A stretch of 64,000 nt of DNA from Pseudobutyrivibrio sp. MD2005. GTDB taxonomy: Bacteria; Bacillota; Clostridia; Lachnospirales; Lachnospiraceae. The position numbers and the translations under genes were made by a program. Each line of letters opens with the position of its first letter. The first letter of the stretch is position 1. Location: positions 1-64,000 of the forward strand of contig NZ_JHXE01000001.1 in the NCBI RefSeq assembly GCF_000621865.1, read 5' to 3'. The notes beneath the pieces were generated by a model. It had not been told where the DNA came from. It worked only from the letters and a program-made list of their open reading frames with translations, and ran no database searches. This document shows, piece after piece, positions 46,335-52,840 of the stretch.

Positions 46335-46814
46335 ATGATTAATGATTTCTTAAAAAAATATCAAGAAGAATTAAATTCTGATAGAATTCAACTTAAAGAA
46401 GATATAGACTTACTTGAAACAAAAATTAAAGAAGAGAGTAAGTTCTTATCTTTATTAGAAGAATCTAATGAGTCTTATTTTAAAGAATTTACTCCTAGAG
46501 ATATTAATGCAAAAAATAATGAAAAAGCTGCTGAGATTAGACTTAGCTTAGAAAATCTTAATAGTGAGATGAATGATAAGCTACAACAAATGAGATTTTT
46601 CGATGCAAGAATAGTAGAGATAAATGCATTGTTAAGTAATACTGCAGTTATTAATCGTCCTTCTAAAAAACAAAATTTTGTGAATGATGATGTAAATAAT
46701 GATTCCGATTCTACAAAATCTTTAAAAGATTCTCTTTTATTAATAAAAGATTTTGTTGTTTTAGATCCTTATAGAGCAAAACTTGAGTTAGAAAAACTGA
46801 TTTCTTTACTTTAA
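46335..46814 (+). CDS. coiled-coil protein with resemblance to the DegS sensor domain
   Basis: 159 residues, soluble. Residues about 1-115 are charged helices with heptad character. The stretch ESNESYFKEFTPRDINAKN, then LENLNSEMNDKLQQMRFFDARI, resembles the helical N-terminal DegS signalling domain of Firmicute histidine kinases (from memory, uncertain). A Ser/Asn/Asp-rich linker (about 115-133) is followed by a C-terminal helix LLLIKDFVVLDPYRAKLELEKLISLL. There is no kinase domain. A GGAG site precedes the ATG. It lies between rsmG and the parS sites, where no such gene is usual. The function is unknown. Confidence 0.5.
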   Translation: MINDFLKKYQEELNSDRIQLKEDIDLLETKIKEESKFLSLLEESNESYFKEFTPRDINAKNNEKAAEIRLSLENLNSEMNDKLQQMRFFDARIVEINALLSNTAVINRPSKKQNFVNDDVNNDSDSTKSLKDSLLLIKDFVVLDPYRAKLELEKLISLL

Positions 46815-48812: not shown

Positions 48813-49301
48813 ATGATTGAACGTTATTTAGGAATTAGTACAGACTATATTGTTATCGGACTCACAGCGCTAGTTCTAATTATGATGATCTTATTAATTG
48901 TATTCATTGTTCAAATGAGTAAATTAAAAAAGAGATACAAGATTTTCATGCAGGGAAACGATGCTAAGTCTTTAGAGGATACACTCGTATACAGATTAGA
49001 GCAGGTTGATGAGCTTATTGAAGCAAATGCTAGTAATGAAAGAAATATAGATGCAATCTTCAAGAATATGAAAGATTGTTTCCAAAAAATTGGTCTTGTT
49101 AAGTATGACGCATTTAACGAGATGGGTGGTAAGCTTAGCTTTTCACTTTGTATGTTAAATGAAAAGAATAATGGATACATAATTAATGCTATGCATTCGC
49201 GAGAAGGATGTTATACTTATGTTAAGGAAATTATAGATGGAAATTCTATAATCCAGCTTGCAGAAGAAGAGGAGCAGGCTCTTCAGCAGGCTTTAAATTA
49301 A
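48813..49301 (+). CDS. DUF4446 family membrane protein
   Basis: 162 residues. One membrane helix (about 12-36, YIVIGLTALVLIMMILLIVFIVQM) is followed by a coiled coil (about 40-85). A small alpha/beta domain has the typical IGLVKYDAFNEMGGKLSFSLCMLNEKNNGYIINAMHSR segment of DUF4446. The function is unknown; in Firmicutes the gene commonly follows parB. A GGAG site precedes the ATG. Confidence 0.85.
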   Translation: MIERYLGISTDYIVIGLTALVLIMMILLIVFIVQMSKLKKRYKIFMQGNDAKSLEDTLVYRLEQVDELIEANASNERNIDAIFKNMKDCFQKIGLVKYDAFNEMGGKLSFSLCMLNEKNNGYIINAMHSREGCYTYVKEIIDGNSIIQLAEEEEQALQQALN

Positions 49302-49317
49302 TCACGGATGGTATGTA

Positions 49318-50190
49318 ATGCATAAATTTTTACCGGCAATAGGTTTTAGTAAAATAAATAAAGAAGAAATGGAAAGTCTCCTTCAAGAGATTATATTGAG
49401 ACCTGACTATCAGGAATCTGCAATAGATTTAGAAGGAAATCAATTTGTTGAGCTTAGATATATGGTGGCCGACAATGTTGGTATGGTTCTTCGAGGCATA
49501 TACAATTATAATGATGAATTTATTTTAGATTATTATTATCCAACATTTTTTGCAGAATCTATTTCAATTACAAATGATGTAGATGTGATAAAACAATCAG
49601 ATAAAGAAAACTACCAGGTTATGGTTGATGAAATTAGACTTGGTGTGAATCTTATCTTCCAATTGCAAAACATGGGAGAGTACTTACGTAAGAATATAAC
49701 AGTAAAAAAGGGTAACGCAAAAGTTATTAGATTAGCGGCTCTTTCTGTTGAAGGCAAAATTATTCTTCCTTTGTACGATGATGAAAAAAGTCGTATAAAG
49801 GAAAAAATGAATAATAAAAAAAGAATTGATTTAGTTGAACAGGCTAGAGAAGGTAATGAAGAAGCTCTTGAGAGTCTTACAATGGATGAGATTGATCTTT
49901 ATCAGCGAATTTCAAGACGCGTTGCGAGAGAAGATATTTTAAGTGTTGTAACAAGCTTTTTCATGCCTTACGGTATTGAAAATGATAAATACGAAATCAT
50001 GGGTGACATACTAGATGTAAAATCTGTTGTGAATCATCTTACGATGGAAGAAATGTATTTATTAGTTGTTGAAAGTAATGATGTCGTATTAGAGGTTTGT
50101 ATCAATAAAAAGAATTTGCTGGGTGAACCAATTGTAGGTAGACGTTTTAAAGGAACAATTTGGTTACAGGGAACTGTAGAATTTGATTAA
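49318..50190 (+). CDS. DUF3881 family protein
   Basis: 290 residues, soluble. The start HKFLPAIGFSKINKEEMESLLQEII and the mixed alpha/beta pattern match DUF3881, a family of unknown function seen mainly in Lachnospiraceae. A short helical insert rich in charged residues lies near 155-185. No catalytic motif is evident. It begins 16 bases after the DUF4446 gene, so it is probably the last gene of the parAB transcript. No terminator is visible before the tRNA-Arg promoter. Confidence 0.72.
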   Translation: MHKFLPAIGFSKINKEEMESLLQEIILRPDYQESAIDLEGNQFVELRYMVADNVGMVLRGIYNYNDEFILDYYYPTFFAESISITNDVDVIKQSDKENYQVMVDEIRLGVNLIFQLQNMGEYLRKNITVKKGNAKVIRLAALSVEGKIILPLYDDEKSRIKEKMNNKKRIDLVEQAREGNEEALESLTMDEIDLYQRISRRVAREDILSVVTSFFMPYGIENDKYEIMGDILDVKSVVNHLTMEEMYLLVVESNDVVLEVCINKKNLLGEPIVGRRFKGTIWLQGTVEFD

Positions 50191-50235: not shown

Positions 50236-50250
50236 CAAATAGTTGCTTAT

Positions 50251-50322
50251 GTTCCCTTAGTTAAATGGATATAACAAGCGCCTCCTAAGCACTAGTTGAG
50301 GGTTCGATTCCCCCAGGGAACA
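50251..50322 (+). tRNA. tRNA-Arg (anticodon CCU)
   Basis: Acceptor GTTCCCT/AGGGAAC with discriminator A, anticodon loop CTCCTAA (CCU), T-loop TTCGATT. It is 72 bases long and CCA is not encoded. Two stem positions are mismatched: C29-A41 in the anticodon stem and A50-C64 in the T-stem. A strong terminator follows. Probably functional, but the mismatches are worth noting. Confidence 0.9.
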
Positions 50323-50338
50323 TTAATAATGAATTATT

Positions 50339-50368
50339 AGAGTCGATTTAGGTCGGCTCTATTTTTTT
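50339..50368 (+). terminator. intrinsic terminator after tRNA-Arg
   Basis: AGAGTCGA pairs with TCGGCTCT across a six-base loop, followed by ATTTTTTTA. Confidence 0.88.
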
Positions 50369-50560: not shown

Positions 50561-51163
50561 ATGGCGGAATTAACACTTACTAAAGAGCAGCAGGATACAT
50601 TAGGAGAAATCGCAAATATCAGCATGGGTTCATCTGCAACTTCTCTTAGTGCTCTTTTAAATAATTTAAAAGTTGATATTACAACACCTAAAATTGAATT
50701 AATTAGAAAGAGTGAATCTCTGGACGATTATCATAATGTGTGTGTACTTGTACATATTAATTATGTAAAGGGTTTAACAGGAAGTAATGTTTTAATATTA
50801 AAAGAAGATGATGTAAAGATTATTGCTGATTTGATGATGGGAGGTCCAGGTGTAGCTGGCCCCGACGAAATAGGGGAGTTACAGTTGTCAGCAGTATCTG
50901 AAGCTATGAATCAAATGATGGGCAGTGCTGCGTCATCAATGTCACAGTTACTTGATAGAGTAGTAGATATTTCACCACCAAAGACAGATAACATTGATGT
51001 AGAAAGTGTAAAGATATTTGAGAGGTTATTTGAATCACCAGAAATAGATTTTGTAAAGATAACATTTAATTTAAAAATTGGTACAGTAGTAGATTCAGTT
51101 ATGGTTCAACTGTATCCTATTACTTTTGCACAGGATATGGTATCTCTATTTGAAAGAAAATAA
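50561..51163 (+). CDS. stand-alone CheC/FliY-N-type CheY-P phosphatase
   Basis: 200 residues, soluble. Two copies of the CheC phosphatase motif (D/S-x3-E-x2-N) are intact: D12-E16-N19 in DTLGEIAN and S110-E114-N117 in SAVSEAMN, each followed by a helix and a Pro-containing strand. This matches CheC and the N-terminal part of FliY. The C-terminal SpoA/FliN domain of FliY is absent, since the protein ends at the phosphatase domain. The expected activity is removal of phosphate from a CheY-like response regulator. An AAAGGAGG site precedes the ATG. The membrane-scaffold gene starts 14 bases after its stop, so the two form a unit. No CheY or flagellar gene is in the window. Confidence 0.78.
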   Translation: MAELTLTKEQQDTLGEIANISMGSSATSLSALLNNLKVDITTPKIELIRKSESLDDYHNVCVLVHINYVKGLTGSNVLILKEDDVKIIADLMMGGPGVAGPDEIGELQLSAVSEAMNQMMGSAASSMSQLLDRVVDISPPKTDNIDVESVKIFERLFESPEIDFVKITFNLKIGTVVDSVMVQLYPITFAQDMVSLFERK

Positions 51164-51177
51164 TAGTAGGGGGCACA

Positions 51178-52629
51178 ATGGACGAGAACGCTAAGAAAAT
51201 TCAAAGAGAAATAGCCAAAGACAAAGTTCAAGTTATTCTAGCTAGCATTGCACTTTCTGTGTTGGTAGTCATGGAATTCTATGTCATGATTAACTACAAA
51301 AGTAATTTTATAGCAATGGCAGCTGGAATTCTTTTGATGATTTTTGCACTATTTTTCCTTATCAGTGCATTAATGGATATGTCCTTGAAGCAAAAGGATA
51401 TGGAGCAAGAAAAATACGAGGAAATATATAATGCACAAAAGGCGTCTTATCTCGTAATTAAGAAAAGTTTTGATGAGATGGAGCAAAGACTCCGTGCAAT
51501 CGAAGAAAACAGTTCTCTGCCAGCAGAAGATATTATCAATGCCCAAAAAGCTGTGGCAAAGGTAACAATCTCTAGAAGTAAAGAAAATACAGATGCATTG
51601 ATGAACTCAAATGATGAGTTGATAAATCAGCTATTTAATATTCAAGAAAAATTAGATAGCAACAATTCTCAAATTATAGAGAAGCAGCAATCATTATTAA
51701 AAGAATCGAATCTTGATTTACAGCAAAAGATAGCTGCACTTACAACTCAAATTTCAAGTATTGAAGGAAAGATACAAAATGGAATTCCTGTTATGGCATC
51801 ACAGCCTATGCAGATGCAGGTGCCACCAGTTACACCACAGCCTACAATGCCAATGCCTGAAGCTGTATTAGAACCAACACCTGAAATAATTCCTGAGCCA
51901 ACAATAGAAGAAGTAATACAAGAAGAAATATCTGAGCCAGTTCCAGAGATGGAACCAGAACCTGAATTTGAAGCAGCAGTAGAAGAAGCTCCTGTTGAAG
52001 ATTTAGGATTAGATTTAGATATAGCAATAGAAGAACCAGCAGCGGAAGATGAAGTTGGATTAGATTTAGATTCAATGATAGAAGAGTCTGATAGTGGAGA
52101 TGCATCACTAGAAGAACCAATTGCAGAAGAAATTTCACTAGAAGAATCTGTGGCTGAAGAAGCTGTGCAGGAGCCAGTTGAAGAAATAGCAGTCGAAGAT
52201 ATTCAAATAGAAGCTGTAGAAGAAATACCTGTAGAAGAAACGCAAGTTGAAGAGGCTCCAATAGAGGAGGCCACAATAGAAGAGAGTCCTGTGGAAGAGG
52301 TTCCAGCAGAACCAGTTATTGAAGAGCCTGTTGTAGAAGAAGCACCTAGCGAGCCAGTAGCTGAGGAACCTGTAGTAGAAGAAACAGTAGAGGTTGCTCC
52401 TGAAGCTAGCGAGCCAGCTTTAGCAGATCCAGGCGCATCTCTAGATACATTGCTTGATGAGATAGGAGAAACAGTAGAAGAACCAGAGCCTGAACCAGAG
52501 CCAGTCCCAGAACAACCTGAAGAAGAAAAGGATGATTCTATAGTAATTCCAGATGTTGGAGTGGACTTAACAGATCCTAACAGAGTAATGAGTCCTGAAG
52601 AAATAGAAAAGCTATTTGCAAATATTTAA
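51178..52629 (+). CDS. membrane-anchored Glu/Pro-rich scaffold with C-terminal FliM/FliY-like peptide
   Basis: 483 residues; the overall family is not recognised. Two membrane helices (about 18-38 and 44-66) are followed by a coiled coil (about 70-200) and a Met/Pro/Gln patch (about 205-225). A long Glu/Val/Pro/Ala-rich low-complexity region (about 225-460) has repeated VEEAP/VEEIP-like units. The last 13 residues, MSPEEIEKLFANI, resemble the N-terminal CheY-P-binding peptide of FliM and FliY (consensus like LSQDEIDALL). A GGGGG site precedes the ATG. It sits 14 bases after the CheC-like gene and ends in a terminator. Inference: a membrane platform that recruits a CheY-like protein for its partner phosphatase. 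Confidence 0.55.
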   Translation: MDENAKKIQREIAKDKVQVILASIALSVLVVMEFYVMINYKSNFIAMAAGILLMIFALFFLISALMDMSLKQKDMEQEKYEEIYNAQKASYLVIKKSFDEMEQRLRAIEENSSLPAEDIINAQKAVAKVTISRSKENTDALMNSNDELINQLFNIQEKLDSNNSQIIEKQQSLLKESNLDLQQKIAALTTQISSIEGKIQNGIPVMASQPMQMQVPPVTPQPTMPMPEAVLEPTPEIIPEPTIEEVIQEEISEPVPEMEPEPEFEAAVEEAPVEDLGLDLDIAIEEPAAEDEVGLDLDSMIEESDSGDASLEEPIAEEISLEESVAEEAVQEPVEEIAVEDIQIEAVEEIPVEETQVEEAPIEEATIEESPVEEVPAEPVIEEPVVEEAPSEPVAEEPVVEETVEVAPEASEPALADPGASLDTLLDEIGETVEEPEPEPEPVPEQPEEEKDDSIVIPDVGVDLTDPNRVMSPEEIEKLFANI

Positions 52630-52633
52630 AATC

Positions 52634-52668
52634 CTACCTGCCTCGATTAGGGGCAGGTAATTTTATAA
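52634..52668 (+). terminator. intrinsic terminator after the scaffold gene
   Basis: TACCTGCC pairs with GGCAGGTA across a nine-base loop, followed by ATTTTAT. Confidence 0.82.
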
Positions 52669-52764: not shown

Positions 52765-52837
52765 GCGCGATTAGCTCAGCTGGCAGAGCACCTGACTCTT
52801 AATCAGGGTGTCCAGGGTTCGAACCCCTGATCGCGCA
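52765..52837 (+). tRNA. tRNA-Lys (anticodon CUU)
   Basis: Acceptor GCGCGAT/ATCGCGC with discriminator A, GCTC/GAGC D-stem, anticodon loop CTCTTAA (CUU), T-loop TTCGAAC. All stems pair. It is 73 bases long and CCA is not encoded. Single-gene unit with its own promoter and terminator. Confidence 0.97.
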
Positions 52838-52840
52838 CTT

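Follow-up and report, generated by a model that had tools for sequence, protein, structure and literature searches.

A stand-alone FliY-type CheC protein paired with a membrane tether bearing a FliM-like terminal peptide in Pseudobutyrivibrio: a possible docking and dephosphorylation station for phosphorylated CheY

The first 64,000 nucleotides of contig NZ_JHXE01000001.1 of Pseudobutyrivibrio sp. MD2005 (assembly GCF_000621865.1; family Lachnospiraceae), hereafter the window, encode two adjacent genes on the forward strand, namely a 200-residue protein made of a stand-alone CheC domain of the FliY type and a 483-residue membrane protein, the tether, ending in a peptide, the tail, which resembles the docking peptide at the N-terminus of FliM (FliM-N). 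With slightly better than even confidence, the pair is viewed as a membrane-tethered station of the flagellar chemotaxis pathway, where phosphorylated CheY (CheY-P) would dock and be dephosphorylated. The observations at the basis of this reading are (i) the gene pair itself, (ii) the phosphatase motifs and the fold of the CheC protein, (iii) the conservation and repetition of the tail, (iv) its likeness to FliM and FliY peptides, and (v) its restriction to FliM-bearing genomes in a sample of the family.

The CheC protein and the tether would cooperate as follows: the hairpin protein would anchor a long, flexible cytoplasmic tether, the terminal peptide would capture CheY-P, or CheV by its receiver domain, through the surface to which FliM binds, and the FliY-type CheC domain, encoded just 5' of the tether, would strip the phosphate. 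Such an arrangement would amount to a FliY (docking peptide plus CheC) or a CheZ (phosphatase with a flexibly linked docking helix at its C-terminus) split into two proteins and located at the membrane instead of the motor. Outside Pseudobutyrivibrio, no phosphatase gene adjoins that of the tether, which often bears several peptides and may there be a multivalent CheY buffer or hub; where a carrier has many peptides but no phosphatase gene beside it, buffering or localisation would be just as likely an outcome.

The gene pair and its CheC protein

The two open reading frames (ORFs), 50561-51163 (200 residues) and 51178-52629 (483 residues), lie on the same strand 14 bases apart with the membrane protein second, in agreement with the sequence-only reading of this stretch from which the analysis started. 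The features are as follows:

50561..51163, + strand: stand-alone FliY-type CheC domain, 200 residues, putative CheY-P phosphatase (sequence, profile and fold comparisons)
50594..50617, + strand: phosphatase motif 1, D-x3-E-x2-N, residues 12-19 (sequence; invariant in 30 relatives)
50888..50911, + strand: phosphatase motif 2, S-x3-E-x2-N, residues 110-117 (sequence; invariant in 30 relatives)
51178..52629, + strand: class-1 tether protein, 483 residues, with membrane hairpin, helical region, acidic linker and terminal peptide
51229..51375, + strand: membrane hairpin, residues 18-66 (hydrophobic stretches by eye; helices in a low-confidence model)
51376..51792, + strand: predicted helical region, residues 67-205, holding most positions conserved across genera
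51793..52554, + strand: acidic Pro/Glu-rich linker, residues 206-459 (0.39 identity and 0.23 gaps within the genus)
52564..52626, + strand: terminal tail DLTDPNRVMSPEEIEKLFANI, residues 463-483, predicted FliM-N-like docking motif
50338..50361, + strand: terminator-like hairpin 3' of the upstream tRNA-Arg gene (50250-50323; consensus scan only)
52635..52659, + strand: terminator-like hairpin between the tether gene and a tRNA-Lys gene (52765-52838; consensus scan only)

Because they are bounded by tRNA-Arg and a hairpin on one side and by a hairpin and tRNA-Lys on the other, the CheC and tether genes look like a two-gene unit, and their spacing together with the hairpins suggests a shared transcript.

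Both phosphatase motifs are intact in the CheC-domain protein (D12-x3-E16-x2-N19 and S110-x3-E114-x2-N117); their six residues are invariant across 30 aligned relatives and the two motifs are present in 32/32 stand-alone relatives. Pfam recognises a CheC domain (103.6 bits) and, at E ≤ 1, no SpoA/FliN (FliN_C) domain, the chain stopping at residue 200, which bears out the initial description of a CheC-type protein lacking FliN/SpoA. What that description had overlooked is the type: the protein reaches 237.7 bits against the NCBIfam FliY model (cut-off 218) vs 64.5 bits against the Thermotogales CheC model (below its cut-off of 250), i.e., it carries a CheC domain but is of the FliY type and not CheC proper. 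The CheC fold is supported, and both sequence and fold are nearer to FliY than to CheC or CheX. In a tree of FliY-type relatives, which has no CheC row, leaves out the genome's own CheC and cannot decide between FliY and CheC, the protein falls in a clade of stand-alone FliY-type copies. Neither the window protein nor any of the 32 stand-alone relatives shows the N-terminal docking pattern within the first 60 residues. The 200-residue protein is a putative CheY-P phosphatase.

The CheC gene has at least 578 relatives, and the loci of the 80 best-matching ones were considered; the nearest named ones are from Pseudobutyrivibrio (90-96% identical). In Butyrivibrio and others, genes for a stand-alone CheC of the FliY type (L007-L034) have no tether adjoining within the stretches examined, and in several Butyrivibrio a 378-residue protein is encoded after them. 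Two contigs of metagenome-assembled genomes labelled Alistipes and Bacteroides (L035, L068) hold fliM-fliY genes of Lachnospiraceae type, possibly from mislabelled or contaminated bins.

Within the genus Pseudobutyrivibrio, the tail is present in 27/29 genomes. The other 26 tail-bearing genomes provided 26 loci, two of which are cut by a contig end; in all 24 loci showing both genes, the CheC gene lies directly 5' of the tether gene, with a gap of 8-22 bases in 22 and of -38 and 307 bases in the remaining two, where the start codon was chosen by script. The tail occurs once in 23 of these loci and twice in one.

The tether and its terminal peptide

The tether typifies a family, hereafter class 1, in which two hydrophobic stretches near the N-terminus precede a conserved helical part, an acidic linker rich in Pro and Glu and, at the end, the tail; the window protein ends in ...VMSPEEIEKLFANI. 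Its description as a membrane protein with a long tether holds up, the two membrane helices having been assigned by eye; the tail would lie on the cytoplasmic side of the membrane. The AlphaFold2 model consists of long helices and is of low confidence (predicted local distance difference test, pLDDT, 62). No Pfam match above cut-off and no LysM domain at E ≤ 1 was found in the window tether, and NCBIfam returned nothing above cut-off for it, for two more class-1 proteins or for two class-2 proteins (see below). A ubiquitin-like biology was rejected, the Prok_Ub match to the tail being weak (Pfam E 0.049, below cut-off, 22 residues).

Over 25 Pseudobutyrivibrio tether genes, mean identity is highest in the tail (0.93), followed by the helical region (0.78), the hairpin (0.72) and the linker (0.39), and the last 24 codons accumulate 2671 synonymous vs 512 non-synonymous differences in 7200 comparisons; the tail is therefore under purifying selection. 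Beyond the genus, the first 201 residues of the tether were searched against 150 Lachnospiraceae genomes, one per genus, and matched 21 of them, from which five weak matches without the domain layout (L105-L109) were dropped to leave 16 convincing homologues including that of the window; in a further search, matches with E from 4.5e-6 to 0.01 were likewise dropped as chance. Retention of the peptide in orthologues had been set beforehand as one of two points on which the scaffold idea turned, and the tail indeed forms the protein end in 15/16 homologues, the exception (L152) being a 188-residue protein without tail from a genome that encodes a tailed copy elsewhere. The initial reading had missed that the peptide is repeated in relatives: 11/16 homologues bear 2-5 copies, for a total of 36. 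The consensus of the 25 different copies, drawn by eye, is D-P-N-[KH]-x-[ML]-[ST]-[PA]-[DE]-[ED]-I-A-A-[LM]-[FLIV]-A, with Pro 5 and Ile 14 invariant.

As for likeness to known docking peptides, the FliM and FliY proteins of these relatives start with, for instance, LSQNEIDNLL or MDGMLSQDEINALLSGM. A matrix built from 38 such N-terminal peptides of 12 residues, with no tail in the training set, was run on 3230 ORFs, and its top 20 comprise one FliM (L057, identified by Pfam and absent from the training set), one FliY (through an internal motif) and 18 tail-bearing ORF records, some of which are duplicate records of the same gene and two genes of which rank there through a FliM-like variant. 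Many of the scanned loci were chosen for carrying the tail, which raises the number of tail ORFs and not their ranking. With a score of 13.6, the window tail lies between the 99th and the 99.9th percentile reached by the other ORFs, and 4/500 shuffles of the window tether reach its best score; at L219 the tail is weak (68/500). A hidden Markov model (HMM) of the tail matches the window copy with E 2e-11, that copy being part of the training set, and a pattern scan for the peptide in the genome itself was uninformative (28 places vs 12 for the reversed-pattern control). The FliY of genome G107 (L226:6913-8340) lacks the usual N-terminal start, its CheC domain coming first, and the tail motif, RMLSPEEIAALVAG, is found in the linker between the CheC and FliN domains (FliN_C matched by Pfam). 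A chance peptide was rejected given the retention of the tail in homologues, the matrix ranking, the shuffles and the purifying selection. By this likeness, the tail is a candidate CheY-binding peptide.

Distribution, flagella and a second class of carriers

When tail genomes are defined by a best tail-profile E below 1e-6, which leaves out G107 (1.9e-5, a FliY), the profile finds 27/150 Lachnospiraceae genomes, i.e., 20 with the tail in class 1 and seven with it in class 2. FliM is present in 80 of the 150 sampled genera and in 27/27 tail genomes (hypergeometric p 3.6e-9), 20/20 for class 1 (p 1e-6), p-values that are too small because genera share ancestry. In a class-wide sample of 391 genomes, four carry the tail, all Lachnospiraceae, and none was found outside this family. 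A system unrelated to flagella was rejected, tail proteins occurring only in FliM-bearing genomes of the family sample. The initial proposal of a membrane hub for a CheY-like regulator, set apart from the flagellum, thus fares unevenly: the hub remains a plausible role for the tether, but separation from the flagellum is not supported given FliM in all 27 tail genomes, and a second carrier located near cheV in 24/27 loci also speaks against it.

In this second carrier, class 2, an N-terminal part of disordered appearance bears the motif copies and is followed by a segment rich in Lys, a single hydrophobic helix and a conserved C-terminal domain for which Pfam gives nothing above cut-off. The number of profile matches per protein rises to as many as 13 (G100). 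The domain is found in 61/150 genomes, 59 of which have FliM, the exceptions being G042, which has FliY, and G147, a fragment. In the 24 loci mentioned, including that of the window's own genome, the cheV-like gene adjoins the class-2 gene or lies one or two genes off; among the others, a contig end truncates L220 (the 13-copy locus) and L285, and L273 shows no cheV in the stretch examined. The CheV proteins of L213 and of the window's genome comprise CheW and receiver domains (Pfam). The CheY of the window's genome is encoded downstream of fliY (contig C6 of G000; L002:2560-2922). Some class-2 proteins without the DPN motif hold FliM-like stretches, e.g., GLMSEDEIDRLLSGE and GLDQDAINALLSGE (0/500 shuffles each); many others without it are not clearly above their shuffles. 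Mutual exclusion of the motif between the two carrier families (20 and 7 genomes, overlap 0) was considered and is not significant (P 0.12).

The genome's own class-2 protein is encoded at L266:6272-8167 (contig C3 of G000), further ones at L213-L220 and L267-L285. This single-pass protein is encoded 5' of hisH-hisF (names by eye), near cheV, and its typical start is (S/N)EDYLDSLLNS or similar. Genome G052 holds a carrier of a third kind, a 233-residue ORF (L214:9117-9818) ending in DDPNRVLSPDEIQALFAAMGAG and without Pfam match at E ≤ 0.1. One class-2 gene, in which the motif occurs eight times, is directly preceded by a PAS-GGDEF-EAL gene (L217:10169-11917), a possible link to cyclic di-GMP.

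Around class-1 genes, parA, parB and the genes for DUF4446 and DUF3881 share the locus in 11/16 cases, the same 11 for all four, some of the remaining loci being short contigs. In the window, the DUF4446 and DUF3881 genes occupy 48813-50190, and 46335-46814 encodes a 159-residue protein, which is found in 6/16 tether loci and for which Pfam gives nothing above cut-off.

Competing readings and known systems

Taking both classes together, it is possible, at slightly under even confidence, that flagellated Lachnospiraceae possess membrane-anchored multivalent CheY sponges, i.e., at least two proteins bearing from 1 to 13 FliM-like peptides. These would bind CheY-P in competition with the motor, keep the signal buffered or localised and, in Pseudobutyrivibrio, pass it on to a dedicated FliY-type phosphatase. 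Several observations weigh against a docking and dephosphorylation station. The class-1 gene lies near parA-parB in 11/16 loci and not inside a chemotaxis operon, and the CheC neighbour was encountered in Pseudobutyrivibrio alone, none standing beside the tether in the 15 other genera examined. Counting as stand-alone FliY-type CheC the ORFs of fewer than 231 residues with at least 37% identity (hand count; 35% or less being CheC proper), 10/80 FliM genomes have one and seven of these ten bear the tail, a modest co-occurrence (7/10 vs 27/80, p 0.015). In the genus sample, FliM comes without a tail match in G561 (99% complete), and the tail without a FliM match in three genomes that are 81-91% complete (G547, G552 and G553); G560 (77% complete) shows neither. 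The tail of L139 is weak, its score being reached by 132/500 shuffles. Finally, Asp12 of FliM, which in Escherichia coli bridges Lys119 of CheY according to the available part of PMC7012829, is replaced by Glu in the window tail and by Ala in 21/25 different tail copies; most FliYs of these relatives have Asn there.

The main rival, held to be rather unlikely, is a polar landmark or scaffold like HubP/FimV, where the peptides would gather CheY, CheV or switch proteins at the pole for localisation and not for signal removal. It would account for the peptide repeats that relatives carry in an acidic, membrane-anchored region, for the parA, parB, DUF4446 and DUF3881 genes at those 11 loci and for the second carrier near cheV; as excerpted from PMC8789113, the known partners of HubP bind to its large, acidic repeat region in the cytosol, and minicells containing HubP are enriched in CheV4. 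The window tether, however, has neither LysM nor any other Pfam match above cut-off, and the presence of a CheC gene beside it in Pseudobutyrivibrio argues for signal removal. Less probable still is a partner not of CheY type, e.g., the CheC domain itself or FliN/FliY: the CheC gene is directly 5' of the tether in all readable loci of the genus, but 20/27 tail genomes have no stand-alone FliY-type CheC by the hand count, the motif matches the N-peptides of FliM and FliY, and it recurs in the linker of the G107 FliY, which is without the usual start. An ordinary envelope protein with a tail motif-like by composition, adjoining an unrelated FliY-domain duplicate, is highly improbable: its linker is low-complexity and acidic and 4/500 shuffles do reach its score, but the tail is under purifying selection, repeated, found in a different protein and accompanied by FliM in the family sample.

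Bacteria of this kind are not known to possess CheZ, and clearing CheY-P away from the motor is therefore a question for them, which the gene pair makes directly testable. Were the station to exist, a membrane protein with tandem docking peptides would be a new chemotaxis element, i.e., a sink or relay the capacity of which evolves by copy number, and a function would be given to two uncharacterised protein families, the cheV-neighbouring one being present in 61/150 sampled genera. CheY-docking peptides also exist on FliY and CheA. From the portions of the sources at hand, such peptides are known at the motor on FliM and on CheZ (PMC7355467, PMC1447658, PMC3774744), these two sharing one face of CheY (PMC3774744); CheZ owes its main affinity for CheY-P to a short helix at its C-terminus, borne on a flexible tether (PMC1447658; layout also in PMC7750401), the FliM linker was proposed as a flexible tether delivering CheY (PMC7355467), and in Caulobacter an Ile-Asp change in the FliM motif removed the density of the bound CheY homologue (PMC7534056). 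No description of proteins such as the present ones was found in the literature searched, consisting in part of excerpts and omitting most subscription journals, which makes for weak evidence of absence.

Compared with HubP/FimV, the tether shares a membrane anchor and a long acidic, presumably cytoplasmic, region but has no LysM match, and the repeats of its relatives are FliM-N-like peptides. With CheC and CheX, the window protein has fold and motifs in common but is nearer FliY. Like CheZ, the system presents a candidate docking peptide at the very end of a chain whose preceding parts are a predicted helical region and a linker, alongside a presumed CheY-P phosphatase activity; unlike CheZ, the tether is membrane-anchored, lacks a conserved D-x3-Q, the CheZ active-site motif in the text available from PMC7750401, and the phosphatase would be a separate CheC-type protein. 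That the tether be CheZ was rejected, the best alignment column for D-x3-Q being filled in only 3/15 class-1 proteins. With the FliM N-peptide, the tail shares [LM]-[ST]-x-[DE]-[ED]-I-x-x-[LM]-[FLIV] and is picked up by a matrix trained on FliM and FliY, but it is C-terminal or in tandem, preceded by D-P-N, with Pro or Ala for Gln after Ser and usually Ala for Asp12. As in FliY, a CheC domain with two phosphatase motifs, in FliY the middle domain, goes with a FliM-N-like docking peptide, whereas here the two are on separate proteins, the one with the peptide is anchored in the membrane and there is no FliN (SpoA) domain. The tether is best read as a membrane-bound docking protein for CheY-P, which in Pseudobutyrivibrio would be paired with its own phosphatase, the two together forming a split, membrane-bound counterpart of FliY or CheZ.
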